This document shows positions 6,969 to 55,325 of a stretch of DNA of 64,000 bases, piece after piece; the stretch's first letter is position 1; each line of letters begins with the position of its first letter. The DNA is taken from IMG/VR virus record IMGVR_UViG_3300045110_000158, positions 1 to 64,000 of that record; one strand, 5' to 3'. The DNA comes from a virus. Both the position numbers and the translations under genes were made by a program. The notes beneath the pieces were generated by a model that was given only the letters and a program-made list of their open reading frames with translations, did no database searches and was not told the origin of the DNA.

Positions 6969-9312
6969 CCTGCATACCTTTCTCTAGGATGCCCAGCGCC
7001 GTATCCACCAGCTGCGCGTCTGCATTGGCGGTGTTCTTCTGCCCCTGGGCGATGTTCTTGAATGCATCGGATAGTATCTTGCGCAGGTTGGCTTCGAGGA
7101 GCTTCTTCTGCTGATCCTGCTGATCCTGCTGAGCCTGAGCCTGAGACTGCTGGCGCCGGCTCGCTTCGTCCTCGGTCACCAGGATGTCGTCCATGTCCCT
7201 GGCCCTGACCTGAGCTTCGGTGAGCTTGCGCTCGTCGACGTGGATCATCTGCTCGGGCTTGAGCGTCTGCACCAGCGAATCAGCCTGCATGCCGCGAAGC
7301 TCCTTGGCCATGAGGCTGGTCGCGCCACGGGCAACCACGTCGTAGTCGCCATCGGGCGCCTGGTCCGGATTGAACACCCGATTGAACAGCACCATCGAGT
7401 TGATGAGGCTTTGCGTGAAAGTATCGAACGACCGAATGACATCTTTGAAAGGAAGAGCTTGGTCACCACGAAGCATGCTCGCGCCCGCCGCCGTACGTAG
7501 CGGCTCACTTGGCTGCTTCTCCATATCGCCACCCGTCGCCGGACCGACGAACGTCTCACTATCCGCGAACTTCAATCCCAGTTCGACGATCTTCAGGAGA
7601 CTATCGAGGTGGGCGTCGATCTGAACATTGCGCACTGCTGGCCACTGCGCCTCGGGCCCAGAGCCTTCGCGGTACCAAACTTTGTACGCGGCGATGGCGG
7701 ACAAATCCTGATCGAGACGTAACAAGTCAGTGTTGAGTTCCAGGTTAGGGCCGCACACGACGCTCGCGTTATCGAGCAGCATGCGCACAGCGGCAGCGAC
7801 CATCATTTGTGAGTCGCGTATCGCTTGCGGTAGACCAAAGCCGACTGGGCTGGTGTCGTCCTCATCGAACAAGAACGTGTGGATCATCCGCGGTATCGGT
7901 ATCGAAGGCATCTCCTTGGCGAGTTCCTCCCAAGGATTGAGACGCGCACCAATGACGTTGGCGTCGAGCATCCAGATTTCCGCGTCGATGTAATCGGAAA
8001 GCTTGTCCGCAGAAACCTCTACACCGACCTCCTGGAGCAGCGCGCCGTCCACTGAGCCATGCCACACCATGACCTCGTACTTCATCGTCTCCGTTTTCAT
8101 TTCGTTGACGTTGACCTTGACGCCCATCGCCCGCAGCTCCTGTTCGAACTGCTGCGGACGATAATTGCCTACGGGGTAGCGCGTGAGATAGGAGTCGATG
8201 ACGTTCTGGAAAAAGTCAGGTCTTCCTCCTAACTCCTTCACCTGCGTCTTGCTCATGACAAGGCGCACGAAGTAGCCGTCCATGCCCGTCAACGTCTTGG
8301 CGCTCAGATCAGGGTAGAAATCCCAAACCGGGAGAAATTCAAAATAAGGTTTGAAGACTGTCTGCTTGATCGGCTTGACGATCGGCGTCGGTGTGGGCGG
8401 CGCCGCACCATTCATCTTCGGCGCACCGCCGTTCATTTGCTGCGCACCCGATGTGGGTAACCCTTGGCCAGGCACCCGCATTGTAGGTAATCCCGGCTGA
8501 TTAGGTGGACCGGGCGGCCCAGGCTGTGCTGGGGACAACCCTGTGGGTATACCTGCCGGCGGCTGTATCACTTTCCACGTCACGCTCTCCGACTTGCGCA
8601 CAAAGGGTCCACGCAGGACACCAAGGCCATACATAATCCCGGAGCGGATCACTGCACGGTTCAAGGCGACGTAATCCAGAGCTTGGTGCCCGCCTAACTC
8701 CTGCAACTGGTCGTCGATTAGCCGACCTAATTTATCGGCGCGCAAATCAGCGTAACGCTCAAGTGCCGTCATCACATAGCCGTTGAAGGCGAACGAATCA
8801 GATGGGTCAGGTGAGGGCACACCCGCCATCTGATCCTTCTCTTGAGCCAGCTGGATTGCCTCCCGAACTTCTTTGACAGTGATATCCGGCCACGGCGACG
8901 CATGGATTTCCCAGTTGCGCTCGTTGCCCTGGAACATCAGGTTCATGATTCGCGCGAGCACGCTAATGCACTTTGTTCTTGTGATCTTGGGGTACGCCTT
9001 GGACCGATTGGGCGACATCGCCTTCTCGACCTCGGGATCGTAGATGCCAAGATACTGGCGCTGGTTCGCCAACCACCGCAGCTCGACGATGCGGCGATCG
9101 CTGACGTACTGCATGAATATCTGATTGAAGCGCTGACCTAACGTGCGAAGCACTTCAGAGGAAATCTTCTTGACCGGTGCGTCAGACCCAGGAGGAACAG
9201 ACTTATCCTTGCCGGGAGCAGGCGTAGGAATATCAAGAGCCGGCGGCTTGAGAGCCGGATCAGGATATGCCTTCGCCGTATTCAGCGGCGTCCCTGAAGT
9301 CTCGATCGGCAT
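6778..9312 (-). CDS. Portal protein, 844 aa
   Basis: The dodecameric portal forms the DNA entry/exit vertex and the site of terminase docking. Evidence is context (directly after the large terminase and before scaffold and capsid) plus portal-type features: an N-terminal helical part with RFNQIFMQYVSDRRIVELRW, a wing/stem-like region with DSFAFNGYVMTALERYADLR, and a C-terminal Gln-rich coiled coil (DEASRRQQSQAQAQQDQQDQ). The length is at the upper end for short-tailed phages. There are two Pro/Gly-rich inserts, at about residues 255-310 and in the last 60 residues; the latter shares DNA with another gene. Confidence 0.85.
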   Translation of the reverse strand: MPIETSGTPLNTAKAYPDPALKPPALDIPTPAPGKDKSVPPGSDAPVKKISSEVLRTLGQRFNQIFMQYVSDRRIVELRWLANQRQYLGIYDPEVEKAMSPNRSKAYPKITRTKCISVLARIMNLMFQGNERNWEIHASPWPDITVKEVREAIQLAQEKDQMAGVPSPDPSDSFAFNGYVMTALERYADLRADKLGRLIDDQLQELGGHQALDYVALNRAVIRSGIMYGLGVLRGPFVRKSESVTWKVIQPPAGIPTGLSPAQPGPPGPPNQPGLPTMRVPGQGLPTSGAQQMNGGAPKMNGAAPPTPTPIVKPIKQTVFKPYFEFLPVWDFYPDLSAKTLTGMDGYFVRLVMSKTQVKELGGRPDFFQNVIDSYLTRYPVGNYRPQQFEQELRAMGVKVNVNEMKTETMKYEVMVWHGSVDGALLQEVGVEVSADKLSDYIDAEIWMLDANVIGARLNPWEELAKEMPSIPIPRMIHTFLFDEDDTSPVGFGLPQAIRDSQMMVAAAVRMLLDNASVVCGPNLELNTDLLRLDQDLSAIAAYKVWYREGSGPEAQWPAVRNVQIDAHLDSLLKIVELGLKFADSETFVGPATGGDMEKQPSEPLRTAAGASMLRGDQALPFKDVIRSFDTFTQSLINSMVLFNRVFNPDQAPDGDYDVVARGATSLMAKELRGMQADSLVQTLKPEQMIHVDERKLTEAQVRARDMDDILVTEDEASRRQQSQAQAQQDQQDQQKKLLEANLRKILSDAFKNIAQGQKNTANADAQLVDTALGILEKGMQDELTGPAAAGASPAPTPQGPPAGGGLAAALAAGALGPGAGGPAPAPVGPPGPMPEPPSQGVPQ

Positions 9313-11535: not shown

Positions 11536-11729
11536 CAGTGCAGCCTCTTTATTTGTGTGAGTCTACCCTCCGACGCGCACGCGGTCAGCATGCCGCCGTT
11601 GAGCATCGGGCACAGCACGAACATCGCCTGTTCGATATCATCGGTCAGCATGCTCTCGTCGTCGACCATCTGGAACACGACCAGCGTGCCGTAGTCCGGG
11701 TGCTCGAAGATGATCGGTGCATAGGTCAT
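11535..11729 (-). CDS. Hypothetical late protein, 64 aa
   Basis: [20 protein letters not shown], then acidic residues and a Met/Cys-containing end. The N-terminal half looks like two beta strands with a turn. It is coupled on both sides: its ATG overlaps the fibre gene's stop and its stop overlaps the next ATG. I do not recognise the family. Confidence 0.65.
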
Positions 11730-13540
11730 CGCACTCGTCTTGCCGAGATGTAGCCGGTCGCCGTCGTCGCCGGCCCGAGCGCCACCAGGAACACTGTCGT
11801 GTTAACACTAACATTGAACCGGCACAGGCTGGTGTTGAAGTTCTGCGCCGCCTTGCCGTAGGTCAATGACTGATCGAACAGCGTACCAATGCCGGCCGCC
11901 AGTTGTGCGGGCGTCGGCAACGTGTTCGAGGTGTTGCTGACTGCCACGGCATAGCGCGTTCCGGCCGTAGCCGGCGACACGAAGTTGACGTTGCCGCCCA
12001 CGGTCCAGTCACCGGGCGTCAGCACGAGCTGCCCGATGTTGATGGGCGTGTTGAGCGTGAGGTTTACTGCTGTGGTGATCTGGGCTGACAACTGCTCGCC
12101 GACGTTGCCGGCGGCGGCGTTAGAACCGTCGGTCACTCCCTTGATCGGCGCACGGCTCGTGTCGGTCGGGTGGACGTGATCGCCGCGCGCCCAGCTCGAA
12201 CTGGTGCCCGCGGCTGCGTTGCCATCCATCGCAGGGATGGCAGCGGAGCCGACCGGCACGGCGCCGCCCGTGATGTATCCAGCCGGATTACTGGCGTCGT
12301 ACTTTGTTGGATCGTGCGGGACAAAGATGAGATTGTCGGAGCCGAGAACAGCCTGATTGCCGACGTTGGCGCTGACCGAGCTTGGTCCGGCGGGGCCCGT
12401 GGGCCCGGGAGGGCCCGCCTGTCCTGGCGCGCCTACGATGCCCTGCGGTCCCTGCGGTCCCTGCTGGCCTGCGGGACCTGGGGCGCCTTGCGGTCCTTGT
12501 GGGCCTGCAGAGCCCTGATCGCCTACTGCTCCCGCCGGGCCCGCTGGACCAGGGCTACCATCCTGTCCAGCCGCTCCGGGGACACCATCTTGGCCAGCTG
12601 GTCCAGGTGAGCCTGCTGGACCTGCTGGTCCGACATCACCGGCGGGGCCGGGAACTCCAGGTGAGCCGGCTGGGCCCGGGGGACCAGCATCTCCCGGTGA
12701 GCCAGCGGGGCCAATGGGGCCAGGGGGGCCAATCTCTCCCGCGGGGCCTGCTGGGCCAGCTGGGCCAGCCTCTCCTGCCGGGCCTGCCTCTCCTTGAGAA
12801 CCTGCCTGTCCTGCTGGGCCAGCCGCTCCATCCGCTCCTGCGGGTCCGGGCGTGCCGGGCGTTCCGGCCGGGCCAGTCTGGCCTGGCGGTCCGGGCGGTC
12901 CGGGTGGTCCACCTGGCGCTCCATCTGCTCCTGCGGGGCCGGTCGCTCCGGGTGGCCCCTCGGGGCCGGCCGGGCCGGGCGCTCCGTCTGCGCCGGGCGC
13001 GCCCACTTCACCAGGTAGACCGGGCACACCGGGTGTTCCTGCAGGGCCGGATTGTCCTTGAGGTCCTGCGGGTCCCGCGGGGCCGGGAGGACCATCTTGC
13101 CCTGGACTACCTTGGGGGCCTTCTGGCCCCACGGGACCACTATCTCCACCCACTCCGGGTGGGCCGGGAGGGCCGGCGGGGCCTGGAGGTCCTTCTGGAC
13201 CTGGTGGGCCAACTGTTCCACCTCCTGAGGAGAGTGCGGACCAGGAAGCACTTTGTCGTCCATAAATCTCTCCATCGGTTGGAGCTTCCGGGATGCCTCC
13301 ACCTCCGGCGCCGCCGCTTCCTGCGGGGGTGTCGCTGAAAACCCAGCGGGTCTTTTCACGCTTTGGGTCTGGATAGACAGCAACCAATGACCAGCCTTGC
13401 TGACCCTCGACGTTGAGGTCCGCTTCCGAACCACTCGGTTCACTGGGAGCCCACGGGTGGTCCACTACTCTGTAGTTTACAGGCCCGCTTTGCGGGGTTG
13501 GCTTGGGCTTGTCGGGCTTGCTGGTGGGTGTGTCACTCAT
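11726..13540 (-). CDS. Collagen-like tail fibre / virion fibre
   Basis: 604 residues in three parts. Residues about 20-70 are a small domain ([13 protein letters not shown], then [20 protein letters not shown]), DUF4177-like, also found alone in the next gene upstream. Residues about 111-382 are Gly-X-Y collagen repeats, roughly 90 triplets rich in Pro and Ala, with one visible break (GAPGGPPG). The remaining 220 residues include [16 protein letters not shown], a motif common in phage tail fibres, and an all-beta C-terminal knob. It is likely a trimeric fibre on the virion. The repeats give several long antisense shadow frames. Confidence 0.85.
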
Positions 13541-14759: not shown

Positions 14760-14840
14760 GCGGTGATTTATAGCACGCTTCGTTTTGATGGGTAGACACC
14801 CACAAAAATCTTTTCCCGGCATTTGGCCTTGCAGTGTAAG

Positions 14841-14858
14841 CTATATACTGGTGTATAG
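14841..14858. promoter_or_regulatory. Imperfect 18-bp dyad upstream of the late operon
   Basis: CTATATAC-TG-GTGTATAG has 8-base arms with one mismatch. It lies about 20 bases upstream of the alternative start (14822) and 82 bases upstream of the preferred start of the small terminase gene, in the only sizeable gap before the leftward late genes. I found no clear sigma70 -35/-10 pair for the minus strand here, so late transcription may depend on an activator binding this site or another. Confidence 0.35.
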
Positions 14859-14992
14859 GATGATTTAGGGGATTTTCAGGAAAAATATCTGGGCGATGGG
14901 CAAAGGCCCGCAGGCACCCGCGAGCGATCCCCTTGGTGCCCTTGCTCTGCCAGATAAGAATTACTCCATAGGCTAGGGGTAGAGCGGGATGA

Positions 14993-15013
14993 GGTGTAAC
15001 ATCGTGTAACACC
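14993..15013. promoter_or_regulatory. Dispersed 21-bp dyad, copy 1 (one-base variant)
   Basis: GGTGTAACA-TCG-TGTAACACC. It differs from the consensus half-site GGTGTTACA at one base. It ends 5 bases before the -35 box of the promoter at 15019, a position suited to an activator or to a repressor that blocks the -35. Confidence 0.7.
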
Positions 15014-15018
15014 TCGAT

Positions 15019-15047
15019 TTGACACAAGCTATGCACCATGCTATTGT
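15019..15047 (+). promoter_or_regulatory. Sigma70-like promoter for the first plus-strand gene
   Basis: TTGACA, 17-base spacer, TATTGT. The predicted start is about 50 bases before ATG 15105. The 21-bp dyad lies directly upstream. This is probably an early promoter used by host RNA polymerase. Confidence 0.7.
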
Positions 15048-15104
15048 TTGATTGCTGGCACGGAATGCCAGTGCAACAGCCCTGTAGGGCAGAAAGAGTG
15101 ACTT

Positions 15105-15764
15105 ATGACAAACGTTCAATCGATCGTGACTCCCGCGACCAATGGCGCAATCCATGCCAAGACCAATGGCAAGGCTAAGGCCAAGGCCAACGGCTCGACA
15201 TCGCTAACGCCAGCCCAAGCTATCGACATTGCCTTTGAGTATGGGCAGACCATGGCAGGGCAGGACGGCGCCTTGACTAGTGCCTTCGCCACGTTCAAGG
15301 CGAACGATAAGGTAATCGCTGATATGGTCCAAGCTTTGACGGAAGGTTACTTTGTCCGGAAGCTTAGCTATGACCGGGATGAGGCAAAGCGGGTTATTGG
15401 CTTGAAAAAGTACAATCAACTCAACCCTGCTAAGAATACCGATGACAACCGGACGGCGGAGCAAGAACGGGTTATGACGGCCGTTCGCGTCCTAGTCTCC
15501 CGTGCCAAGCGCATGGCAGGGATCACGGAAGCCAAGGCGGACACGGCCGTCAAGGCGGAGCAAGTCAAGGCGGAGAAAGAGGCGCACGAACAGCGCTTGA
15601 TCAAGGCCGATGAGATCATCAATCCTCCGGACGACGTCGACGCTTTCGACGCTCTCAACCGGATGGTGCTTTCGATGAAAGCAATCCAGAAAAAGTATGC
15701 CGCAAAGCTTGTCGGGGATCGCGGCTCGGAATGGCGCGATTGGCTCGCCAACGCTCCGCGCTAA
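15105..15764 (+). CDS. Unknown early protein, 219 aa
   Basis: First gene of the plus-strand arm, with its own promoter and a strong terminator right after it, so it forms a single-gene unit. The first 35 residues are Ala/Lys/Asn-rich (KTNGKAKAKANGS); the rest is helical and charged, with LTPAQAIDIAFEYGQTM and a Lys/Glu-rich middle (AKADTAVKAEQVKAEKEAHE). No known domain is recognised. High lysine content, a single-gene unit and the first position are typical of immediate-early host-takeover or DNA-binding proteins; this is inference. It lies next to the proposed origin. Confidence 0.75.
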   Translation: MTNVQSIVTPATNGAIHAKTNGKAKAKANGSTSLTPAQAIDIAFEYGQTMAGQDGALTSAFATFKANDKVIADMVQALTEGYFVRKLSYDRDEAKRVIGLKKYNQLNPAKNTDDNRTAEQERVMTAVRVLVSRAKRMAGITEAKADTAVKAEQVKAEKEAHEQRLIKADEIINPPDDVDAFDALNRMVLSMKAIQKKYAAKLVGDRGSEWRDWLANAPR

Positions 15765-15782
15765 GCCTAGCCTAGCCTACTG

Positions 15783-15810
15783 CCCCGCGGCGAAAGCCGC
15801 GGGGTTTTTT
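15783..15810 (+). terminator. Rho-independent terminator
   Basis: Perfect 9-bp GC stem CCCCGCGGC / GCCGCGGGG closed by a GAAA tetraloop and followed by six T. It lies 19 bases after the stop of the 219-residue gene. It isolates that gene from the gene-free region downstream. Confidence 0.95.
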
Positions 15811-16358
15811 GCGTTTCGGCGCCATCACCTAATCCAATGCGCTAACACGTGACGCAAAACGACGGTATCTAAATACAAGGAAGTTTACAGTGCACTATAC
15901 TAATAGGTGTTACATGATGTAACACCTGTTTCGTATTAGCATATGCGAACAGATGGTTGATTTTAGCGTTAACGCTTACAACGCGCTACCATATGCGCTC
16001 TTTTTGTGCCGTTGAAAGGCGCAATGTGCCGCACTTTGTGAATCCTTGTGCCGTGAAAAGTTTAATGATTTCAATACCATGTGCCTTTGTGCTGTTTGTG
16101 CCGTTCCAAAACAGGCCCCCCCCCTTTTTTGAGTATCCAAACGGGTTGAGCCGTGAGCCCTGCCAAGTACTATATTTAACTACGTGTAAATAAAATATAA
16201 TATAAGATATAGGATGTAGAGTGATTGTGGCGAAATAAAGATATGGGGGGGGGCTTGTTTTGCACGGCACAGCGGCACAATCGCTCAAACCTAATGATAT
16301 CAATAACTTACGTGGCACAGACTTTTCAATCAACGGAACAATACGCTCAATCAATGAC
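15811..16358. other. Gene-free segment: candidate replication origin with iteron-like repeats
   Basis: About 550 bases with no convincing gene. On the left are forward copies of TGTGCCG(T/C): TTGTGCCGTTGAAA at 16004, TGTGCCGC at 16025, TTGTGCCGTGAAAAG at 16046 and TTGTGCCGTTCCAAAA at 16096. On the right are inverted copies at 16261-16271 and 16272-16280, plus TGGCACAG at 16313. Between them are a C9T6 tract (16116-16130), a very AT-rich stretch (about 16166-16222) and a G9 tract (16245-16253). TAATGAT(T/A)TCAATA occurs at 16063 and 16292. A perfect 12-bp palindrome AGCGTTAACGCT lies at 15965-15976. Copies of the 21-bp dyad stand at both ends. Iterons around an AT-rich core suggest an origin. 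Confidence 0.55.
15906..15926. promoter_or_regulatory. Dispersed 21-bp dyad, copy 2 (perfect)
   Basis: GGTGTTACA-TGA-TGTAACACC with perfect 9-base arms, extended by A and T outside. It lies at the left edge of the proposed origin, 96 bases after the terminator, with no gene start nearby. That argues against a purely ribosome-related role for this copy. Confidence 0.85.
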
Positions 16359-16574
16359 TTAGCGTGTATCACAATCTGGAGGTGTTACATGATGTAACAC
16401 CTTCTGCAGGTAGAGCCGTGCACTGCGCGCCTTGTATCTGTCGTTGCTGTTGAGGATCGCGCGCACCGTACACAGCGCAGCGAGTAGACTATCGATCTCG
16501 CCTTGCCTCGATTGCTGGCCATTGGCGAACGCCGCACGCTCCGCCGCGTTGGTCGCGGCGTAATCCTGATCCAT
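16359..16574 (-). CDS. Hypothetical protein, 71 aa, antisense to the plus-strand arm
   Basis: MDQDYAATNAAERAAFANGQ then a helical EIDSLLAALCTVRAILNSND segment. The frame begins 3 bases after the stop of the upstream membrane peptide, so the two form a small minus-strand pair. Its C-terminal VLHHVTPP comes from reading through the 21-bp dyad. It is probably helical; the family is unknown. It may be real because of the coupled arrangement and a plausible composition, but its 3' end invades the origin-like region. Confidence 0.5.
   Translation of the reverse strand: MDQDYAATNAAERAAFANGQQSRQGEIDSLLAALCTVRAILNSNDRYKARSARLYLQKVLHHVTPPDCDTR
16381..16401. promoter_or_regulatory. Dispersed 21-bp dyad, copy 3 (perfect)
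   Basis: Same as copy 2, including the TGA centre and the flanking A/T. It marks the right edge of the proposed origin and lies inside the 3' end of the small minus-strand gene. Confidence 0.85.
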
Positions 16575-16577
16575 GTA

Positions 16578-16715
16578 CTAGCTCCAATGCCAGAAGCGGC
16601 AGAATGCAAATACGATCAGGCACCACATTGGGATCGCCATCAGGCACCCGTTGCGCAAGCCTACGAAAAATCTCAGCGGATCATCGTCATCCCAGTCTTC
16701 CCAGTTTTTAGGCAT
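16578..16715 (-). CDS. Small membrane peptide with acidic N-terminus, 45 aa
   Basis: Minus strand from ATG 16715: MPKNWEDWDDDDPLRFFVGL, then a hydrophobic helix (LMAIPMWCLIVFAFCRF). A GGGGAG site lies about 9 bases upstream. Phages often carry short DDPLRFF-type membrane peptides, but their function is not known; superinfection exclusion or lysis control are possibilities. It is transcribed against its neighbours and precedes the 71-residue gene. Confidence 0.55.
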   Translation of the reverse strand: MPKNWEDWDDDDPLRFFVGLRNGCLMAIPMWCLIVFAFCRFWHWS

Positions 16716-18147: not shown

Positions 18148-18158
18148 CAACCTAAAGA

Positions 18159-18179
18159 GGTGTTACACGATGTAACACC
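18159..18179. promoter_or_regulatory. Dispersed 21-bp dyad, copy 4
   Basis: GGTGTTACA-CGA-TGTAACACC. It lies 11 bases after a stop codon and 18 bases before the next ATG (18198), so it sits in the leader of that gene. Perfect arms; the centre differs from copies 2 and 3. Confidence 0.85.
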
Positions 18180-18197
18180 TTGGAGATGGCAGCGACC

Positions 18198-18437
18198 ATG
18201 ACCGCATCAGCCTTCGACCCGGTAAGGGCAGCCAAGGAAGAGCTTGTCGGCTTGAACGAAATGCAGCGTGTGCTCAAGGCTCGCGAGCGCGAATGCGAAG
18301 AAGCAATGAGCAAAGCAGAGCAAGAGCTAAACGCTATACGCAAGATCACCGGCTATGTTAAAGTATCTATGCAGACGATCGCACTGCGCATCGCGGAGCT
18401 GGAAAAACGTGCGAGAGAAACAGGCCAGACGCCTTAG
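18198..18437 (+). CDS. Hypothetical coiled-coil protein, 79 aa
   Basis: Start uncertain: ATG 18198 (MTASAFDPVRAAKEELVGLN) has GGAG 12 bases upstream, while ATG 18186 is in the same frame but abuts that GGAG. The whole protein is a charged helix (RVLKARERECEEAMSKAEQE, RIAELEKRARETGQTP) and should form a coiled coil. It directly follows a copy of the dyad. Unknown function. Confidence 0.65.
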   Translation: MTASAFDPVRAAKEELVGLNEMQRVLKARERECEEAMSKAEQELNAIRKITGYVKVSMQTIALRIAELEKRARETGQTP

Positions 18438-19705: not shown

Positions 19706-20176
19706 GTGACATTCGAAGTGCAGCAACAGAACAACAAGCCTATCCTTTGCGTCGACTGGGACGGCGTCGTGCACAGCTACACGTCGGGCTGGAAGGGCGC
19801 GTCCATCATTCCTGACCCGCCAGTGCCGGGTGCCTTGGAATGGCTACTGAGAGCCTCCAAGCTCTTCACCCTCGTGGTCTACTCGTCGCGCTCCAAGGAC
19901 CCCGAAGCGCTCACTGCCATGCGGATGTGGCTGGGTTACCACGCCCATGCCACCCTCCCCGATCTGAAAGCGTCCGAGCTGCTCCAAGTCGTTACTTTCG
20001 CTCATGAGAAGCCCGCGGCCTTCCTGACCATCGACGACCGTGCTATCTGCTTCGACGGCGACTGGTCGAAGCTCGACCCCGAGACCCTGCTCAAGTTCAA
20101 ACCATGGAACCAGCGAGGACGGGTCATCAAGGAAACGATCTCGGACCAAGTAGGTACTCAAGCAAGTGTTACATAA
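19706..20176 (+). CDS. HAD-superfamily phosphatase-like protein
   Basis: 156 residues from GTG 19706 (AGGGG 9 bases upstream). HAD motif I is ILCVDWDGVVHSY (Asp17, Asp19), motif II is LVVYSSRSKD, and a later TIDDRAICFDGDW supplies the motif IV Asp pair. Phages commonly encode such DxDGVxHSY proteins; they are thought to act on nucleotides or polynucleotide 3'-phosphates, but the substrate is not known here. The stop codon lies inside a copy of the 21-bp dyad. It sits between the endolysin and the Acb2-like gene. Confidence 0.8.
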   Translation: MTFEVQQQNNKPILCVDWDGVVHSYTSGWKGASIIPDPPVPGALEWLLRASKLFTLVVYSSRSKDPEALTAMRMWLGYHAHATLPDLKASELLQVVTFAHEKPAAFLTIDDRAICFDGDWSKLDPETLLKFKPWNQRGRVIKETISDQVGTQASVT

Positions 20177-20185
20177 TGCAACACC
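20165..20185. promoter_or_regulatory. Dispersed 21-bp dyad, copy 5 (imperfect)
   Basis: AGTGTTACA-TAA-TGCAACACC; both arms carry one change from consensus. It contains the stop codon of the HAD gene and ends 47 bases before ATG 20233. Confidence 0.7.
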
Positions 20186-20232
20186 TCGTGAACTAACCCC
20201 CTCATCCCACTAACAAATAAAGGAGACTGAGC

Positions 20233-20544
20233 ATGGCCGCAGTACCCGTCGTCATCAACGGCGTCATGATGCCCAAAGGAAAATCCGCCACCGACAAGCC
20301 GGTGCCGGCCGTCTTCATCGGCTATGCCACCATCCCTGGGCTGTCGGTCGGTGGCGGTCCGGTGATCCCGGACACCCCGCCAGATATCCCGGTCGACCCG
20401 CCGACCGAGCAGCCGCCGCCCAGCCTTGCCGTGGTCATCAAGCCCGCCCCGGTGACCGGTGGCTGGGGTCTCGCGACGCAAGGTGACCAGCTGCAATGGT
20501 TCTTCGTTCCCGCCGCTGGCGGCCCGCAGCCCAAGCGACCCTAA
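20233..20544 (+). CDS. Proline-rich hypothetical protein, 103 aa
   Basis: MAAVPVVINGVMMPKGKSAT, then a Pro-rich middle (IPDTPPDIPVDPPTEQPPPS) and a C-terminal WGLATQGDQLQWFFVPAAG. Strong AAGGAG upstream of ATG 20233. The Gly/Pro linker flanked by two short beta segments suggests a surface or periplasmic protein, but no signal peptide is evident. Not recognised. Confidence 0.65.
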   Translation: MAAVPVVINGVMMPKGKSATDKPVPAVFIGYATIPGLSVGGGPVIPDTPPDIPVDPPTEQPPPSLAVVIKPAPVTGGWGLATQGDQLQWFFVPAAGGPQPKRP

Positions 20545-24537: not shown

Positions 24538-24566
24538 TTGACAAACAACGAGTTTTATGGTACAAT
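24538..24566 (+). promoter_or_regulatory. Strong sigma70-like promoter
   Basis: TTGACA, 17-base spacer, TACAAT. The predicted start, about 24573, lies some 33 bases before the dyad at 24606 and about 80 before ATG 24652. It drives the 24.65-28 kb operon including the MoxR/VWA genes. Confidence 0.85.
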
Positions 24567-24605
24567 GCTTGTTACGGTGGGATCAGATTATCCACCAACG
24601 AAAAA

Positions 24606-24626
24606 GGTGTTACACGATGTAACACC
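24606..24626. promoter_or_regulatory. Dispersed 21-bp dyad, copy 6
   Basis: GGTGTTACA-CGA-TGTAACACC. It lies downstream of the strong promoter's start point and 25 bases before ATG 24652, so it is inside the mRNA leader. A bound protein would act as a roadblock; as RNA it is a 9-bp hairpin near the ribosome binding site. Confidence 0.85.
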
Positions 24627-24651
24627 GATTTACTGAACAAGGAGCTGACCA

Positions 24652-25374
24652 ATGAGACTTCCTGTATTCGACCATTCTATGATGGAGTGGGATAGCTGGC
24701 GCGCGTTCCACATCGAGCATTGCGGGCATAGTAAGTTCGTCCAGTTCGACACCGGCGAGTTAGTTGTGTGTCGTAACGGCTGGCGTCCTGAGAACCGCCA
24801 AGTCTACAAAGAGCTTCATATCCAGATCGTCGCGACCGACGACGACGATTGCCCGAAGCTGTACGTTCCCGGTTCGACCAAGCCCGTCTTCAAGTCGCAT
24901 CTCAACCACAAGGGGCAGCAGACGTTGTTGCTCGATCTCGATCACAAGCGCGCGGTGTCGCTCGATTCCTACTTGGACGAAGACAATGCGCCGCTGGTCC
25001 CGAGACGGTTCACGAACAGCAACTCGCGTTACGTCACTGCTTGGTATGCCGGCCCCGATGCTGTGCCTGTCGCCACGCCGATCATACGGCATTACCCGCA
25101 ACCACTGACGCACGATCAGCGCAACCATATTAAGGAGCTTGTGGATGCGAGCAAGGTGTGGCTGCAGATGCAGCATGGTCTTGATACGCCGCGCAAGCGT
25201 CAACACCCTGACTTGAAGGTCGGGGATTTTGTCGACGTGTCATTCGGTGTGCTGACGACAGAGCATCGCATGGCTATTGCTACGGTTGGGTTCAACACGA
25301 TCGTCAAGGAGGAGCATCCTTGGCTGACGTTCAACGTGGAAGGAGTGACTGAACATGACGACGAGGATAACTAA
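24652..25374 (+). CDS. Hypothetical protein, 240 aa
   Basis: Begins MRLPVFDHSMMEWDSWRAFH behind AAGGAG. Mixed alpha/beta sequence with acidic clusters (TDDDDCPKLYVPG, DEDNAPLVPRR). The region VGDFVDVSFGVLTTEHRMAI near the C-terminus reads like a small SH3- or KOW-type barrel. No catalytic motif is recognised. First gene of the operon leading to the MoxR/VWA pair, it overlaps the next gene by 20 bases. Confidence 0.7.
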   Translation: MRLPVFDHSMMEWDSWRAFHIEHCGHSKFVQFDTGELVVCRNGWRPENRQVYKELHIQIVATDDDDCPKLYVPGSTKPVFKSHLNHKGQQTLLLDLDHKRAVSLDSYLDEDNAPLVPRRFTNSNSRYVTAWYAGPDAVPVATPIIRHYPQPLTHDQRNHIKELVDASKVWLQMQHGLDTPRKRQHPDLKVGDFVDVSFGVLTTEHRMAIATVGFNTIVKEEHPWLTFNVEGVTEHDDEDN

Positions 25375-25546: not shown

Positions 25547-25557
25547 CCACCCCAACG

Positions 25558-25578
25558 GGTGTTACATGATGTAACACC
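25558..25578. promoter_or_regulatory. Dispersed 21-bp dyad, copy 7 (perfect)
   Basis: GGTGTTACA-TGA-TGTAACACC. It lies 11 bases after a stop and 24 bases before the ATG of the MoxR-like ATPase gene. No promoter is evident next to it. Confidence 0.85.
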
Positions 25579-25602
25579 ATTCACTGAAAAAGGAACTGAA
25601 CA

Positions 25603-26685
25603 ATGAAGAAGCTCTCTATTTCCCAAATCAAGACTGCCGTCAAAGAGATCGTGGTTCGGCTCGACAAGCCGATTATCATCAAGGGCGGCTTCGGCATCGG
25701 CAAGTCTCAGGGCGTCGAGCAGGCTGTCGACGAGCTTGATAATCCGAAGGCGCTGAAGGAATTGCTGGGCAAAGACTGCCCGTACACCGGCACGCTCTTG
25801 GTGGATATCCGCTTGTCCCAGTACGACTCCGTTGATCTCCGCGGCTTCCCGCAGGCCGACAAGAAAACCGGTAGTGCGATCTGGTATCCACCGTCGACGT
25901 TTCCGTTCATCGGCAACGATGCATTCCCGGACGACAAGTTGATCGTTGTATTCTTTGACGAGGGCCCGGACGCCAAGAACGATGTGTTCGCAGTCATGCA
26001 GCAAATCCTGCTCAACAGGTGCTGCGGCGAGCACGTGCTCAAGCCGAACGTGCGCATGCTGTTGGCGGGTAACCGCGACGGCGATCAGGCTCTTGCCAAG
26101 AAATTCCCTATGCCATTGAACAACCGCCTCATCCACTTCGAGGCGATCAATCCATTGGAGGACTTCTGCATCTATGCGCAGAGCCAAGGCGTGCCATCGG
26201 TGTTCATTGCGTTCTGGAATTTCTGCGCCGATCTCGTCAACACCTACGATCCCAAGAAGACCACACCCATCGTGGCGACGCCACGCACATGGTTCTCTGC
26301 GATCGAGCTGTGGCAGGACAAGCGGTTGGACCCGGTGATCAAGGAGGCCGCCATGATCGGCGCCATCGGCGAGGGTCCGGCGGTGCAGTTCCTGGCTTAC
26401 GTCGATGTCTGGCAGAGCCTGCCGAACATCGAGAAGATCAAGAAGGACCCGGACACTTATCCCGTGCCCGAAGAACTCTCGATCAAGTACGCAACGGCCA
26501 TGATGGTGTCCGAGAAGATGACGATGGGCAACGTGGATGCGCTTCATACCTACCTGAAGCGTTTCACTGCGGAGTTCGTCGTCATGGCGTGGCAGCTGGC
26601 GACGGCGCGCGATGCGACACTCTTTGATGCGGATGCGTACATGGATTATGTGAAGCGCTACCGCGAAGTCTATACGTCCAACTGA
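25603..26685 (+). CDS. MoxR-type AAA+ ATPase
   Basis: 360 residues. Walker A is GGFGIGKS (residues 28-35), Walker B LIVVFFDEGPDA (about 112-123), and a sensor-like MLLAGNRDGDQ follows. The C-terminal lid begins near IVATPRTWFSAIELW. MoxR ATPases act with VWA-domain partners as chaperone-like remodelling machines, and such a partner is encoded at 27201. N4-like phages carry a similar pair (gp24/gp25 region), where the role is also unclear. The dyad and a good ribosome binding site lie immediately upstream. Confidence 0.85.
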   Translation: MKKLSISQIKTAVKEIVVRLDKPIIIKGGFGIGKSQGVEQAVDELDNPKALKELLGKDCPYTGTLLVDIRLSQYDSVDLRGFPQADKKTGSAIWYPPSTFPFIGNDAFPDDKLIVVFFDEGPDAKNDVFAVMQQILLNRCCGEHVLKPNVRMLLAGNRDGDQALAKKFPMPLNNRLIHFEAINPLEDFCIYAQSQGVPSVFIAFWNFCADLVNTYDPKKTTPIVATPRTWFSAIELWQDKRLDPVIKEAAMIGAIGEGPAVQFLAYVDVWQSLPNIEKIKKDPDTYPVPEELSIKYATAMMVSEKMTMGNVDALHTYLKRFTAEFVVMAWQLATARDATLFDADAYMDYVKRYREVYTSN

Positions 26686-26884: not shown

Positions 26885-27154
26885 ATGGTCAAGACAACTC
26901 GTAAACAACGTGAAGCTTTGTTCCGTATCTTCCAGCGGGATTTCCCTGGCTGGATCACGGTCACCACGCGCCACGATGGCGTACGCTGTCCGCATTGCGG
27001 CGAGTGGAGCACGCTAGAGACCGTCAAGGTATCGTCACTGCAGTGGCGCCGCTTTCGCAAGACGGTGCAGCCGTTCTTCGGCGATGACTGCGTCATGGTG
27101 CCGTGGGCCGGTATGTGGCTGGGCATCGAGACGGACGGATACACTCACTCATAG
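26885..27154 (+). CDS. Hypothetical zinc-finger-like protein, 89 aa
   Basis: MVKTTRKQREALFRIFQRDF is a basic helix; VRCPHCGEW (Cys35, Cys38) and a later DDC may bind zinc, and the C-terminus is hydrophobic (MVPWAGMWLGIETDG). Phages often encode such RxxLFxIF...CPxC proteins; function unknown. Its stop codon abuts copy 8 of the dyad. Confidence 0.65.
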   Translation: MVKTTRKQREALFRIFQRDFPGWITVTTRHDGVRCPHCGEWSTLETVKVSSLQWRRFRKTVQPFFGDDCVMVPWAGMWLGIETDGYTHS

Positions 27155-27175
27155 GGTGTTACATTATGTAACACC
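27155..27175. promoter_or_regulatory. Dispersed 21-bp dyad, copy 8
   Basis: GGTGTTACA-TTA-TGTAACACC. Its first base follows the last base of a stop codon and it ends 25 bases before ATG 27201 of the VWA gene. Confidence 0.85.
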
Positions 27176-27200
27176 ACTCACTCAAAGAGAGGACTTACTT

Positions 27201-28400
27201 ATGGCACGACATCAAAAGCAACTCACAGTTTTCGAGACGGCGCGCGCCGGTCTCGTCAAGGTCAAGGCGCTGATGTTCTTTGCGTCAGCGTTGCTGCAAA
27301 CCAAGTTCATCGAAGACCCGACGTGTGACACCGCTTGGACCGACATGGTCGTGATCGGGTACAACCCGGAGTTCATCGAAGGACTGGATATCCCGACTGC
27401 CAAGTTCGTAATCATCCACGAGCTGATGCACATCCTGCTCAAGCACGGGCTGCGGCGTGGCTCCCGTGATCCCAAGCGCTGGAACCATGCGTGCGATTAC
27501 GCCATCAACATCATGCTCAAGAAGCTGGGCTTCAGCATTTGGAAATACGCACTGATCGAGCCCACGTATGACGGCATGACCGCGGAGCAAATCTATGCGC
27601 TGCGAGAGAAGGAGCAACAGGGAGGCAAAGGCAAAGGCAAGGGCCCTCCGGGCCAGGGCCAAGGTCAGGGACAGGGACAACCTCAGCCCCGGCCAGGGAC
27701 AAAGCCTGAGCCTGAGCAAGGCGGGCTGGGCGGCGATCTGCGTCCGGTGCCTGTGGCAACGCAGGAGCAAGCTGCGGCGATCGACCACGCGATCAGCAAG
27801 GTGATCGCGCGGGCAACCGCCATTGCCAAGCAGCATGGCGTCATGCCCGGCGAACTCGAAGCGATCGTTGCCGGGACCTACGAGGACCCAGTGCCATGGG
27901 AGCAGGTACTGATAGACTACATGACAGCTTGTGTGGCGCAGGACGAGAACTGGTCCAAGCGCAACAGGCGGTACCACGACGCCATCCTGCCCTCGCATAA
28001 AAGCAACGGCATGGATGAGCTGACCATCGTCGCCGACTCGTCGGGTTCGATGTTCAGCAAGGCGATCTTTGAGCGCGTCGCTGTGGCTGTGAACCACATT
28101 ACGACAGTAATCAAGCCGATGACTGTGCGCGTGGTGTGGGCCGACGACAAGGACTGCCAGAACATCGACGTGTTCGAGGACGGCGCCGAGGTGGTGCTTC
28201 ACCCTAAAGGTGGAGGTGGCACCGACATGCGCAAGCCATTGGTGTTCGCTGAGCAGTACTCGCCGGAGGTGGTTCTCTTGCTGACGGATGGGTACACGCC
28301 GTGGCCCGAGATCGAGACGCCGTTTCCGTTGATCATCGGGTGTACGACTGATGCGCCTTGTCCTGATTGGGCGGGCACAGTGAGGATAGAGGTGCAGTGA
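27201..28400 (+). CDS. VWA-like metallopeptidase-domain protein (DUF2201 type), MoxR partner
   Basis: 399 residues from ATG 27201. The N-terminal half has a zincin helix FVIIHELMHILLKHGLRR (HELMH at 73-77) and CDYAINIMLKKLG. A Gly/Pro/Gln-rich linker follows at about residues 140-185. The C-terminal half is VWA-like: ELTIVADSSGSMFSKAIF is a MIDAS-type DxSGS, then GGGGTDMRKPLVFAEQ and VVLLLTDGYTPW. This fusion of predicted metallopeptidase and VWA-like domains is DUF2201, usually encoded beside a MoxR ATPase as here. Activity in phage growth is not known. Confidence 0.85.
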   Translation: MARHQKQLTVFETARAGLVKVKALMFFASALLQTKFIEDPTCDTAWTDMVVIGYNPEFIEGLDIPTAKFVIIHELMHILLKHGLRRGSRDPKRWNHACDYAINIMLKKLGFSIWKYALIEPTYDGMTAEQIYALREKEQQGGKGKGKGPPGQGQGQGQGQPQPRPGTKPEPEQGGLGGDLRPVPVATQEQAAAIDHAISKVIARATAIAKQHGVMPGELEAIVAGTYEDPVPWEQVLIDYMTACVAQDENWSKRNRRYHDAILPSHKSNGMDELTIVADSSGSMFSKAIFERVAVAVNHITTVIKPMTVRVVWADDKDCQNIDVFEDGAEVVLHPKGGGGTDMRKPLVFAEQYSPEVVLLLTDGYTPWPEIETPFPLIIGCTTDAPCPDWAGTVRIEVQ

Positions 28401-32975: not shown

Positions 32976-33515
32976 ATGAGTAAAGACGATGGAGAACGAG
33001 GCAAACGTACAGGTATGGACCAGGCGGAGGAAGCGGCTAATGCTCATTGGTGGCGATGCATGCTGGAGTGCGGCAAGATTATAGCTAAGCGTAAACCTCA
33101 TTTTATAACCGATGACATAGTCCTCCTATGTCGATCACGACATCCCAATGCTCGCACTCATGAGAAGCGCGCTATTGGTCCGTTAATGCGGGAGCTTTGC
33201 AACCTTGGTTTTTGTGTAACCACAAACAGCTGGATAAAAAGCACACAAGCACAATGCCATCGACGGCCGATGATGCTCTGGCAAAGCTTAATATCCAATG
33301 CGACATACCGAAAAAATGGGGTGACCACCATGACTGGCTACTTAGTTAACACACGAACAAAAAGAAAGTTCGAGATCATCAAGATCGATCGCGACAAGAA
33401 TTTGTTAACCCTTAAGGGTGAGACTGGCGGAGTGTTCGACGAACCATACGACAAACCCAGGCTCAAGGAGCTTGGCTATCAGTACGTACAAAACAGCGAG
33501 CAACAAGATGCCTGA
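32976..33515 (+). CDS. Two-part replication-module protein, 179 aa
   Basis: Residues 1-110 (AHWWRCMLECGKIIAKRKPH, then CRSRHPNARTHEKRAIGPLM and HRRPMMLWQSLIS) resemble a small phage domain seen in replication modules with THExRAxGPxM and CHxRPxxxWxS. Residues 118-179 (MTGYLVNTRTKRKFEIIKID) look like a separate small beta protein that could start at an internal ATG near 33330. It may be a natural fusion or two genes joined. It overlaps the next gene by 8 bases. Confidence 0.65.
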   Translation: MSKDDGERGKRTGMDQAEEAANAHWWRCMLECGKIIAKRKPHFITDDIVLLCRSRHPNARTHEKRAIGPLMRELCNLGFCVTTNSWIKSTQAQCHRRPMMLWQSLISNATYRKNGVTTMTGYLVNTRTKRKFEIIKIDRDKNLLTLKGETGGVFDEPYDKPRLKELGYQYVQNSEQQDA

Positions 33516-33780
33516 CGGAAAAGAGTTACAAAATGTAACACCATCGCAGCCCGGGTCCAACGGACAGGACCATGGGATCGATCCGAAGATCGTCAAGATG
33601 GTTGACTTTCTCGAACGGGCCGTAAGAACGCAGAACCCAACCGTTGGCACATTCATTGCCGCGGTCGGCCTCATGCTGGGGAAGAGAGGCTTGGACCCTC
33701 AGAACCTCGAACGTGTGATCTTCGACGTGAACTCCGCCATCCGTGTTGGTTTCTATCTCCACTACATCAAAGGAAAATAA
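33508..33780 (+). CDS. Hypothetical protein, 90 aa
   Basis: Start at ATG 33508, overlapping the previous stop; the longer frame is inside the upstream gene. MPDGKELQNVTPSQPGSNGQ includes residues read from a degenerate dyad; then VKMVDFLERAVRTQNPTVGT and a helical end with YLHYIKGK. Not recognised. Confidence 0.65.
   Translation: MPDGKELQNVTPSQPGSNGQDHGIDPKIVKMVDFLERAVRTQNPTVGTFIAAVGLMLGKRGLDPQNLERVIFDVNSAIRVGFYLHYIKGK
33522..33542. promoter_or_regulatory. Dispersed 21-bp dyad, copy 9 (degenerate, inside a coding region)
   Basis: AGAGTTACA-AAA-TGTAACACC. The right half is perfect and the left keeps GTTACA. It starts 12 bases after ATG 33508, so it overlaps coding sequence, unlike most copies. 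It may be a weaker site. Confidence 0.5.
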
Positions 33781-35672: not shown

Positions 35673-36037
35673 GGAAACCTAAGGCCAGCGACCGGAGTGA
35701 GTGGTGGGTCAAGAAACAAGTTAAGCTAATTCTCAAAGACACCGGATGGGAATCCTGGATGCCAAACTCCGGTATGTTTGGTCGGGTCGGTGTGAGTGAC
35801 TTCCTTGCCGTGAAGAAGCCCGCGCTATTCATGGCAATCGAGACCAAGTACGACGACGTACCAACGCAGCTACAACTCGCGTTTCTTAAAATGATCCACG
35901 ACGCCGGGCACTATGCTTTCCTGGTGGACGAAACTAATGTCGACCAGTTACGTGCGCTACTTACAAACGATCATGATCTATCTAGTTACCCAGTTGGTAC
36001 TCTCAGAAAATGGCAAGAAAACTTGACAAACACCTAA
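35669..36037 (+). CDS. VRR-NUC domain nuclease
   Basis: 122 residues. EWWVKKQVKLILKDTGWESW, then GRVGVSDFLAV, FMAIETKYD and PTQLQLAFLKMIHDAGHYAF contain the Asp, Glu-x-Lys and Gln residues of VRR-NUC endonucleases, which are commonly found with SNF2 helicases in phages and are thought to cut branched or flap DNA. Usual length for a stand-alone VRR-NUC. The promoter for the helicase lies inside its 3' end. Confidence 0.9.
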   Translation: MRKPKASDRSEWWVKKQVKLILKDTGWESWMPNSGMFGRVGVSDFLAVKKPALFMAIETKYDDVPTQLQLAFLKMIHDAGHYAFLVDETNVDQLRALLTNDHDLSSYPVGTLRKWQENLTNT

Positions 36038-36051
36038 TAAGATGATACACT
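36023..36051 (+). promoter_or_regulatory. Sigma70-like promoter for the helicase operon
   Basis: TTGACA, 17-base spacer, TACACT. It begins inside the last codons of the VRR-NUC gene and would start transcription about 15 bases before ATG 36074. Confidence 0.75.
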
Positions 36052-36073: not shown

Positions 36074-37627
36074 ATGTTGATACACAAACCAACCAAGAGC
36101 GTCGTGCTCAAGCTACGCGATCCGTCGCGTGTGCTTACATTTTTTCCCAGACAGAGTCGCTTGATCACTGCTGCCGAAGGCAACGTCCAGATCAAGCACA
36201 CGCTGGAGACCACGCTCAGACTCAATGAGCTTGGGATCAACGTGCCGTCTCCTGTTGACTACCAGTATGATTGGCCGGGTAAGTACACGCCGTTCGCACA
36301 TCAGCGACCGATGGCGGACTTCCACGTTCGCAATCTCAAGTGTCTCAATCTTTCGGAGATGGGAGTTGGTAAGAGCTTCTCGGCGCTGTGGGCTGCGGAC
36401 TATCTCATGTCAGTCGGCGAGGTGAGGAAGGCGCTTATTCTTTCGCCGCTGTCCATTCTGGAAACTGTCTGGCAGCAAGACATCTTTGATGTGTTGATGC
36501 ATCGGTCGAGCGTGGTCACTCATGGTGATCGCGAGTACCGGCTCAACGCTTTCGGCATGGACGTGGATTTCTATATTGCCAACCATGACATGATTAGAGA
36601 TCAGGAGATCGCCAAGCTGGTGCGCAAGCGAAAAGACATCGACCTCATCATCCTCGACGAGGCGAGCTTCTTTCGCAACAGCCGCAACATCTCGTACAAG
36701 TATTTTGCGTGGGCTACTGAGAACAAGAAGCGAGTGTGGCTGCTGACTGGCACACCATGTCCCAATGCGCCGACCGATGCCTGGGCGCTGGCACGGCTCG
36801 TCTGTCCGGCGCGGGTGCCCAAGTTCTTCGGCACGTTCCAGCGCATGACCATGCGGCAAGTGGGTCAGTACAAGTGGCGCCCGGTGAACGGCCACGAACA
36901 GATTGTATTCGATGCGCTGCAGCCAGCATGGCGCATCAAGAAGAAGGACTGCATAAGCCTGCCACCGCTGACTGTTGCCAACCGGCGCACGAAGCTCACG
37001 GCGGAACAGGAGAAAGCATACAAGCTCATGCGGGATTACATGATCCTGCAAGCCAAGACCACGAGGATCACCGCAGTCAACGCCGCGGATGCGCTCATCA
37101 AGCTCCGGCAAATCTGCTGCGGGGCAGTAAAGAATGGAGAGGATGTTTACGAGACTATTGACCATTCGGCCCGGCTCAACGAATTGATCGATACAATCAA
37201 TGAGGCTTCGGCCAAGGTGATCGTGATCGTTCCGTTCAAGGGAATCATTCGTGCACTGGAGACTGAACTCGCGAAGCATTTTAGCCTTGCGGTGATGAAC
37301 GGCGATGTTAGCATCGGCGCACGGAATCGGATTATTCGCGCTTTCAAATCCGGACCCGATCCGCGGATACTACTGTGCCACCCCAAGGTGATGGCTCATG
37401 GACTCAATCTGACAGAAGCCGACACGACCATCTTCTATGCGCCGATCTATTCGCACGACGAGTACGCGCAAGTAATCGAACGATTTAATCGCACGGGGCA
37501 GACCCGTAAGATGACTGTCGTTCGTATCACCGCCTGTTCATTCGAGCAAGACATCTACAGCTTGCTCGATGGCCGGGCACTGAATCAGGACAGCATCCTG
37601 AAATTGTACGAGAGGGTTATCCAATGA
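36074..37627 (+). CDS. SNF2/DEAD-type DNA helicase
   Basis: 517 residues. Motif I is LSEMGVGKSFSALW (about 93-106), motif II LIILDEASFF (about 191-200), motif III VWLLTGTPCPN. The second RecA-like domain has IVIVPFKGIIRAL and VIERFNRTGQTRKMTVVRI (motif VI). This is the superfamily 2 SNF2-type layout found in many phages next to VRR-NUC. It probably remodels recombination intermediates. It ends by overlapping the next frame's possible ATG 37624. Confidence 0.9.
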   Translation: MLIHKPTKSVVLKLRDPSRVLTFFPRQSRLITAAEGNVQIKHTLETTLRLNELGINVPSPVDYQYDWPGKYTPFAHQRPMADFHVRNLKCLNLSEMGVGKSFSALWAADYLMSVGEVRKALILSPLSILETVWQQDIFDVLMHRSSVVTHGDREYRLNAFGMDVDFYIANHDMIRDQEIAKLVRKRKDIDLIILDEASFFRNSRNISYKYFAWATENKKRVWLLTGTPCPNAPTDAWALARLVCPARVPKFFGTFQRMTMRQVGQYKWRPVNGHEQIVFDALQPAWRIKKKDCISLPPLTVANRRTKLTAEQEKAYKLMRDYMILQAKTTRITAVNAADALIKLRQICCGAVKNGEDVYETIDHSARLNELIDTINEASAKVIVIVPFKGIIRALETELAKHFSLAVMNGDVSIGARNRIIRAFKSGPDPRILLCHPKVMAHGLNLTEADTTIFYAPIYSHDEYAQVIERFNRTGQTRKMTVVRITACSFEQDIYSLLDGRALNQDSILKLYERVIQ

Positions 37628-37662
37628 CTGACCAACTGAAAATCTTACTGAAAGGAAAGCCG

Positions 37663-38061
37663 ATGACTGAGCAAGAGGTGAAGCTCGACAAGGTCGCCGC
37701 GACCTATGTCAAGATCAGGGATAAGCGGTCCGAGCTGAAGAAAACGTGGGAGGTCGAAGACCTCAAGCTGAAGGACCAGCTCGATACCATCGAGAGCTTT
37801 TTCCTGGAGACACTGCAGGCGTTGGGTGTCGAGAACGCGCGCACAAAGCACGGAACGATATACCGTACTCTTGATGTCAAACCCAGTTGCGAGGACTGGA
37901 ATGCGTTCTATGCCTGGATCGCCGAGAATGAGGCGTTCGATGCACTCGAACGTCGCGTCAAGAAATCCTTCATCACGCAATTCATGGAGGATAACAAGGA
38001 CGAACTCCCGCCCGGGATCACCGTGGTGAAAGAGTACATCGCCAAGGTCCTCCGCAAATAA
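37663..38061 (+). CDS. Hypothetical phage protein, 132 aa (Gp157/Gam-like helix)
   Basis: Two starts are possible: ATG 37663 (GAAAGGAAAG upstream, preferred) or ATG 37624, overlapping the helicase stop, which would add 13 residues. A long helix (YVKIRDKRSELKKTWEVEDL) is followed by TKHGTIYRTLDVKPSCEDWN and ENKDELPPGITVVKEYIA. This LxxxGVENxRTKHGTxYRT pattern is common in phage recombination modules near SSB genes; function unknown. The stop codon overlaps a dyad. Confidence 0.75.
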   Translation: MTEQEVKLDKVAATYVKIRDKRSELKKTWEVEDLKLKDQLDTIESFFLETLQALGVENARTKHGTIYRTLDVKPSCEDWNAFYAWIAENEAFDALERRVKKSFITQFMEDNKDELPPGITVVKEYIAKVLRK

Positions 38062-38081
38062 GTGTTACATCATGTAACACC
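38061..38081. promoter_or_regulatory. Dispersed 21-bp dyad, copy 10
   Basis: AGTGTTACA-TCA-TGTAACACC. Its first base is the last base of a TAA stop. It is followed directly by a 9-bp hairpin and lies 65 bases before the SSB-like start. Confidence 0.8.
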
Positions 38082-38110
38082 GGGTCCTGGACATGTTCCA
38101 GCCAGGACCC
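38082..38110. other. 9-bp hairpin directly after dyad copy 10
   Basis: GGGTCCTGG (38082-38090) and CCAGGACCC (38102-38110) with an 11-base loop, then GCTTTGATC. The T stretch is short, so termination would be weak. Together with the dyad it forms two adjacent stems in the leader of the SSB-like gene. Confidence 0.6.
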
Positions 38111-54947: not shown

Positions 54948-55325
54948 ATGAGCATGTGGCAGAGCGGTACCTTCTACATCGGCGAAACCTGGGTCATCTC
55001 CGGCTACGTCCGGGACGCTAACGGCAATATCGAAGACCTCACCGGAGCCACCATACAATTGCGCGTCACACTGGGCAATTCGGTGATCTTCGACCTGACG
55101 ACGCCGGCCGATGGTGCGATCCTCCAACCTCCCACCGCGGGCGCCTACCTGTTCGAGATCACCCCGGACCAGCAGGCAGGGTTGGCCCTAACCACTTACC
55201 GGTACGAGGCCCGGGCCATCCTTGCCGATGGCTCCATCAGCGTCCAGAACATCGGTGAAATCACCGTCATCCCCTCCAAGTTTGTGAACTTCCCAGTTCC
55301 GCCTAGCATTGTCCTGGTAGCCTAA
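54948..55325 (+). CDS. Plus-strand gene inside the late minus block: beta-sandwich tail protein, 125 aa
   Basis: MSMWQSGTFYIGETWVISGY, then NIEDLTGATIQLRVTLGNSV and AGAYLFEITPDQQAGLALTT. It is an Ig/BppU-like N-terminal beta-sandwich of the sort found on baseplates and tails. AAGG precedes ATG 54948. It is the only convincing plus-strand gene in 42-64 kb. Its start is 24 bases from the divergent gene's ATG, and its 3' end overlaps the lysozyme gene's stop by 4 bases. Its promoter must lie in the neighbouring coding sequence. Confidence 0.75.
   Translation: MSMWQSGTFYIGETWVISGYVRDANGNIEDLTGATIQLRVTLGNSVIFDLTTPADGAILQPPTAGAYLFEITPDQQAGLALTTYRYEARAILADGSISVQNIGEITVIPSKFVNFPVPPSIVLVA

Follow-up and report, generated by a model that had tools for sequence, protein, structure and literature searches.

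Dispersed palindromes in a phage early region as probable operators of a co-evolving, phage-encoded regulator

Ten copies of a palindrome, (A)GGTGTTACA-NNN-TGTAACACC(T), are distributed over the early arm of the phage sequence analysed here, and they probably serve as operators of a co-evolving, self-controlled, phage-encoded dimeric DNA-binding regulator of the whole early region. The sequence, hereafter the window, covers 64,000 bases of a single IMG/VR virus record that is 64,643 bases long. All ten copies fall within 14992-38082 (Table 1), counted with at most one of the 16 fixed bases of GTGTTACANNNTGTAACAC mismatched; none lies in the window's late arm, and no copy appeared in 100 dinucleotide shuffles of the window.

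The early arm and the late/early divide

The early arm runs rightward from 15.1 to 42.4 kb and encodes DNA polymerase A, a SNF2-type helicase, nucleases, an ATPase (phrog_1297) and a DUF2201/VWA protein. It is flanked on both sides by leftward genes, among them those for the major head protein and the terminase large subunit, together with matches to a head-tail adaptor and an endolysin. The gap at 14760-15104, which divides the leftward head, packaging and endolysin genes from the rightward replication genes, had been described in the initial annotation as the only one between late and early genes. This holds for the main arms, whereas two short, weakly supported leftward open reading frames (16359-16715) create a second small divergence in the window. 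An Rfam search of the window gave no match, and no DNA relatives of the early region were found at megablast level among 50,697 phage records.

Several other features of the window were recorded. The ATPase gene (25603-26685) and the gene for the DUF2201 metallopeptidase/VWA protein (27201-28400) form an early-arm pair kept in all relatives. An AT-rich non-coding block between copies 2 and 3 (15928-16379), with C10/T6 and G runs and the words TGTGCCG and CGGCACA repeated on both strands, resembles an iteron-containing replication origin. The leftward gene 11726-13540 contains tandem GC-rich repeats (12440-12997), likely a collagen-like repeat of a virion protein, and a short rightward open reading frame at 54948-55325, within the leftward late arm, is 55-93% conserved in seven relatives.

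Table 1. Coordinates of the palindrome copies and associated features in the window.
Feature	Position	Strand	Description
Palindrome copy 1	14992..15014		AGGTGTAACATCGTGTAACACCT = AGGTGTAACA-TCG-TGTAACACCT; 23 bp; one left-arm base off a perfect palindrome; 4 bp upstream of -35
Sigma70-type early promoter	15019..15047	+	-35 TTGACA 15019-15024, spacer 17, -10 TATTGT 15042-15047; TG before -10 (extended -10); kept across relatives
First early gene, 219 aa	15105..15764	+	between copies 1 and 2; leading binding-protein candidate
Intrinsic terminator	15782..15805	+	after gene 15105-15764
Palindrome copy 2	15905..15927		140 bp past stop of 15105-15764; left edge of origin-like non-coding block
Palindrome copy 3	16380..16402		right edge of origin-like block
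Palindrome copy 4	18158..18180		about 18 bp before start of 18198-18437
Palindrome copy 5	20164..20186		one mismatch; about 47 bp before start of 20233-20544
Second early promoter	24538..24566	+	sigma70-like TTGACA-17-TACAAT; kept in relatives
Palindrome copy 6	24605..24627		about 25 bp before start of 24652-25374
Palindrome copy 7	25557..25579		about 24 bp before ATPase gene 25603-26685
Palindrome copy 8	27154..27176		about 25 bp before DUF2201/VWA gene 27201-28400
Palindrome copy 9	33521..33543		one mismatch; just past stop of 33330-33515
Palindrome copy 10	38060..38082		directly past stop of 37624-38061, ahead of terminator-like hairpin (by eye)

At the divide, the palindrome is followed by the promoter and then by the first early gene. 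The description of the dyad as a one-base variant abutting a sigma70 promoter with a 17-bp spacer was borne out, although the dyad, ending at 15014, stands 4 bases before TTGACA and not 5 as first given. Judged by promoter-like scores alone, this region does not exceed chance (4 found versus 3.4 expected); the combination of palindrome and promoter in the divide gap is also present in seven other relatives sequenced across it, and G017 carries a palindrome of different sequence at the same place. Across the relatives, the palindrome lies 2-13 bp upstream of the -35 element, a spread more in keeping with repression or blocking than with activation from a fixed helix face. Taken together, the strong divide promoter and this spread speak against activation, though they do not exclude it.

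It had further been proposed that a phage regulator might switch early transcription on or off at this dyad. What stands of this proposal is the assignment of copy 1 as the regulator's site at the main early promoter, which is well supported by the retention of palindrome and promoter in the gap and by the concerted change of the sites described below. What probably does not stand is a switch confined to this promoter, since the dyad is one of ten sites, and most of the other nine are inside the early operon. Scans for promoters beside the palindromes found none next to most copies other than those at the divide and at the second early promoter, and control is thus probably more than an on/off switch at one promoter. 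At the second early promoter, copy 6 would occupy about +32 to +54 relative to the predicted transcription start.

Three further elements were observed near the promoters. An AAG(T)AATTCTT / AAGAATTCTT-type element precedes the divide palindrome by some 25-45 bp (about 14955-14970 in the window) and occurs at the same place in G001, G003, G004, G005, G007, G012 and G016; it is perhaps part of the leftward late promoter. The stretch separating the second early promoter from copy 6 contains a hairpin, GGTGG...CCACC (about 24574-24596), paired but of different sequence in relatives, which is a possible 5'-end stabiliser of the mRNA. A third consensus-like promoter, TTGACA-17-TACACT (36023-36051), precedes the helicase gene at 36074 and has no palindrome.

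Position and sequence of the palindromes among related phages

A scan of 2.9 million viral contigs with GGTGTTACANNNTGTAACACC returned 24 stretches, the majority from a small group of related 50-66 kb phages; the single matches in G008, G010, G011 and G014 were taken as chance. Over whole records of related 56-66 kb phages, sites with up to two mismatches numbered 12 in G001, 12 in G003, 8 in G004, 10 in G007 and 9 in G012. In 11 phages, 83 of 102 site centres fell between called genes (7-26% expected for random positions over the same span), and for 49 of the 102 sites a start codon followed at 5-45 bp (4-8% expected on the same basis), counts which are descriptive only because the 11 phages are related. 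Sites recur at homologous places, namely the late/early divide, after gene 15105, before the ATPase gene 25603, before 27201, after 33330, and at the junction between the stop of 37624 and the hairpin; this last position, that of copy 10, is retained in G001, G003, G004, G007, G012 and G015. At a roughly matching position, the polA reading frame itself also contains a palindrome in G003 (14928), G013 (2478) and G015 (15519). In the part examined of the polymerase relatives Xp15 and Acinetobacter phage HHU4, no dispersed palindrome was found.

Five types of palindrome were distinguished: GTGTTACA-n3-TGTAACAC, GTGTCACA-n3-TGTGACAC, GATTAAC-n2-GTTAATC, TTTGCGACA-n2-TGTCGCAAA and GTTACGCCGGCGTAAC. 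G015, whose polymerase is 73% identical to that of the window phage, has GTGTCACA-NNN-TGTGACAC at every copy found, a symmetric change affecting both arms, and its polA-internal palindrome carries the same lineage-specific arms. A version of the GTGTCACA/TGTGACAC palindrome is present at the divide of a further relative, L108. The window palindrome is absent from distant relatives (polymerase 45-52%); of these, G017, G018 and G020 have a palindrome type peculiar to each (GATTAAC-2-GTTAATC, TTTGCGACA-2-TGTCGCAAA and GTTACGCC-GGCGTAAC, respectively), situated just upstream of early genes and partly at homologous positions, for example before the ATPase gene. The position of copy 7, before this gene, is occupied in all five types. 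Positions thus remained fixed while the sequence set was replaced, as predicted for a shared trans-acting binder of shifting specificity.

The candidate binder and a second phage family

The gene 15105-15764 has homologues placed first in the early arm at 46-91% in near relatives, at 25% in G017 and weakly in G019; none was found in G018, and the G020 sequence does not cover the gap. The structural model of its product is helical, with a mean pLDDT of 69 that rises to 85-89 for residues 61-130, and contains a helix (68-87), a three-residue turn and a second helix (91-98), an element that we regard with moderate confidence as compatible with a helix-turn-helix. The product had no Pfam match and matched no known protein family; its best PHROG match, a transcriptional regulator over residues 67-107, was not significant (E 0.1), and tblastn against phage records gave no match. 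A fold search against solved and viral structures gave no match at E<0.001; the best, a designed helical protein (VIA-align Z 6.1), is uninformative for a helical model. For HTH_3, the window phage gave nothing over threshold, and the sole match above the cut-off was in G015, at a different location. Residues that are constant across the seven GTGTTACA phages but altered in both GTGTCACA phages showed no significant clustering within the putative recognition helix (p ~0.10). The window gene also showed no significant homology to the gene of a second phage family described below, and reciprocal HMM searches between them were negative. Because family and fold matches, clustering and second-family homology were not significant, the assignment of the window gene as binder rests on gene position and analogy.

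The analogy comes from two fragments, G006 and G009, which carry the window's own palindrome and have no protein in common with the window by BLASTP. Their terminase relatives (80 loci), taken as the second family, belong to HTVC023P-like phages. Of 78 of these loci, 22 have a dispersed palindrome, whose sequence takes many forms; no such palindrome set was present in the stretches examined of HTVC023P, 023Pt_psg01 and DSL-LC04. A family of 29 genes (from about 130 aa) occupies the first position of the leftward early arm, beside the terminase, and in 20 of the 29 contigs the gene is bracketed by two copies of the contig's own palindrome, a figure that includes several near-duplicates and about nine palindrome types. 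With a fixed-window control, bracketing was found for 16/29 genes as against 61/5376 random intervals. For 9 genes of this family no bracketing pair was detected; one of the nine, L014, shows a pair by eye. An AlphaFold model of the second-family protein was unusable (mean pLDDT 42).

Pairs of near-identical genomes were compared within this family. L147 and L172 have terminases 99% identical and bracketed genes 46% identical, and several sites are changed: at about four matching positions near the gene, GGGGACA-2-TGTCCCC in L147 stands against TTGCGACA-2-TGTCGCAA in L172, which has two old-type sites left, farther from the bracketed gene. Other genes have diverged too in this pair. L119 and L122 likewise differ in their palindromes (terminase 100%, bracketed gene 65%), and in L150 and L152 (terminase 99%, bracketed gene 43%) the difference is confined to the site upstream of this gene, a pattern suggestive of recent replacement of the regulator, the remaining sites being still of the old type. 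The palindrome type is identical in L162 and L171, whose bracketed genes are 87% identical. The isolated Planktothrix phage Pag-Yong1 (OL906435) has 15 sites of GTTCA-NNN-TGAAC; its first early gene product, UMO76074.1, belongs to the bracketed-gene family (E 5.8e-6, 15-protein set), and palindromes flank the gene at 7661 and 8352 in locus L192.

On these comparisons we suggest the following mechanism. The product of 15105-15764 would bind the palindromes as a dimer and, at the site beginning at 14992, would repress its own promoter at the divide, a form of negative autoregulation. At the internal sites, in 5' leaders and at gene junctions, it may act as a roadblock to elongating RNA polymerase, and as the protein accumulates early transcription would be damped or shut off. 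Weighing against this reading are the unchanged sites of L150 and L152, the two old-type sites left in L172 and the nine second-family genes with no detected bracketing pair. A broader proposal, which we advance tentatively as somewhat short of an even chance, is that an unnamed class of phage early-gene regulators exists in at least two unrelated tailed-phage families, each regulator being bracketed by, and binding, its own many-site palindrome, with regulator and operators swapped to new specificities between near-identical phages outside lysogeny, as if escaping cross-regulation in co-infection.

Alternative explanations and known systems

The sites might instead be those of a host transcription factor exploited by the phage, the palindrome varying as the hosts vary. 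A host protein could also explain the same palindrome in the window family and in the unrelated G006 and G009, as well as the near-identical palindrome in G018 and the second-family locus L172, and the phage binder is a candidate only. We consider a host factor unlikely, as exact matches in 84,980 bacterial and archaeal species genomes numbered five, scattered and about as many as chance would give (an estimated 3-4), and as the sites change along with one phage gene in near-identical phage pairs. Strict stoperators, at which a prophage repressor silences a temperate phage through dispersed sites, are a quite unlikely account. According to the available text of the reports on Cluster A phages (L5, Bxb1), these resemble the window in combining an operator at the early promoter with many internal sites, and their consensus differs between subclusters together with the repressor, as the lineage-specific palindromes do here (PMC6550527, PMC9283540). 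However, the same text describes Cluster A sites as 13 bp, asymmetric, monomer-bound and oriented with transcription, in temperate phages with a known repressor family (PMC6550527, PMC9283540), whereas the sites described here are palindromic, with arms of 7-11 bp, and their symmetry gives no orientation to transcription. Moreover, the window phage and its near relatives gave no match to a tyrosine (PF00589) or serine (PF00239) integrase or to ParA (PF13614), a tyrosine integrase being present in G017 only.

RNA hairpins in 5' leaders, steering mRNA processing or translation start, would suit arms that are able to pair in RNA and the many copies 15-40 nt before start codons. In this they recall the start-associated sequences of Cluster K (SAS/ESAS), repeats located just upstream of the start codons of non-structural genes, with inverted repeats and a subcluster-specific consensus; in contrast to the window palindromes, the SAS is asymmetric and the ESAS has imperfect 17-bp arms with a variable spacer (PMC3203893). 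Copy 1, however, lies upstream of its abutting promoter, and other copies lie within polA (G003, G013, G015) or past stop codons; the centre varies from 0 to 3 nt between lineages, is free in sequence and is found in both orientations, and arm changes within a genome are one-sided and not compensatory, all of which makes the RNA explanation improbable. Phage N15 has a dispersed centromere, in which a few palindromes are spread over the genome near regulatory genes and require ParA/ParB-type proteins. Dispersed, perfect palindromes are common to N15 and the window, but centromere or genome-organising sites of the N15 or ParB-parS kind appear very improbable here, as no match to ParA (PF13614) or ParB_N (PF02195) was found in 13 phages, with positive controls, and as the sites gather at gene starts of the early arm. 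In their favour, most of the similar sites of Cluster O have no promoter according to the authors who described them (PMC4351075). Least probable of all, and scarcely credible to us, is a mobile palindromic repeat spreading without function: its near-identical copies with unlike flanks are as such a repeat would leave them, but there is one copy per site, the window's late arm has none, and positions are retained while the sequence set is replaced between lineages.

The Cluster O mycobacteriophages (Corndog and others) carry the repeat TGTTCGG-NNN-CCGAACA, a 17-bp palindrome for which the available text of the report predicts a dimeric DNA-binding protein and gives the function as unknown (PMC4351075). 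As far as that text describes them, these repeats share with the window numerous copies of a perfect palindrome whose arms do not vary and whose 3-bp centre is free, no orientation, an enrichment of intergenic copies among non-structural genes, and phages that are not obviously temperate. They differ in numbering 34 in Corndog, several of them in coding regions, and in their arms (TGTTCGG/CCGAACA versus GTGTTACA/TGTAACAC in the window), and the same text reports neither lineage-specific swapping nor a bracketed gene (PMC4351075). Our literature search found no later explanation of the Cluster O palindromes, which were reported in 2015. The palindromes of the window are best filed as a variant of dispersed-operator control, and not as a member of the Cluster A, O or K systems.

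Under the preferred reading, that of operators for a phage-encoded regulator, the bracketed gene provides a named candidate binder, in an isolated phage as well (Pag-Yong1, UMO76074.1). If this is true, concerted operator swapping would take place in phages without detected lysogeny genes, and immunity-like divergence of specificity would not be confined to temperate phages.
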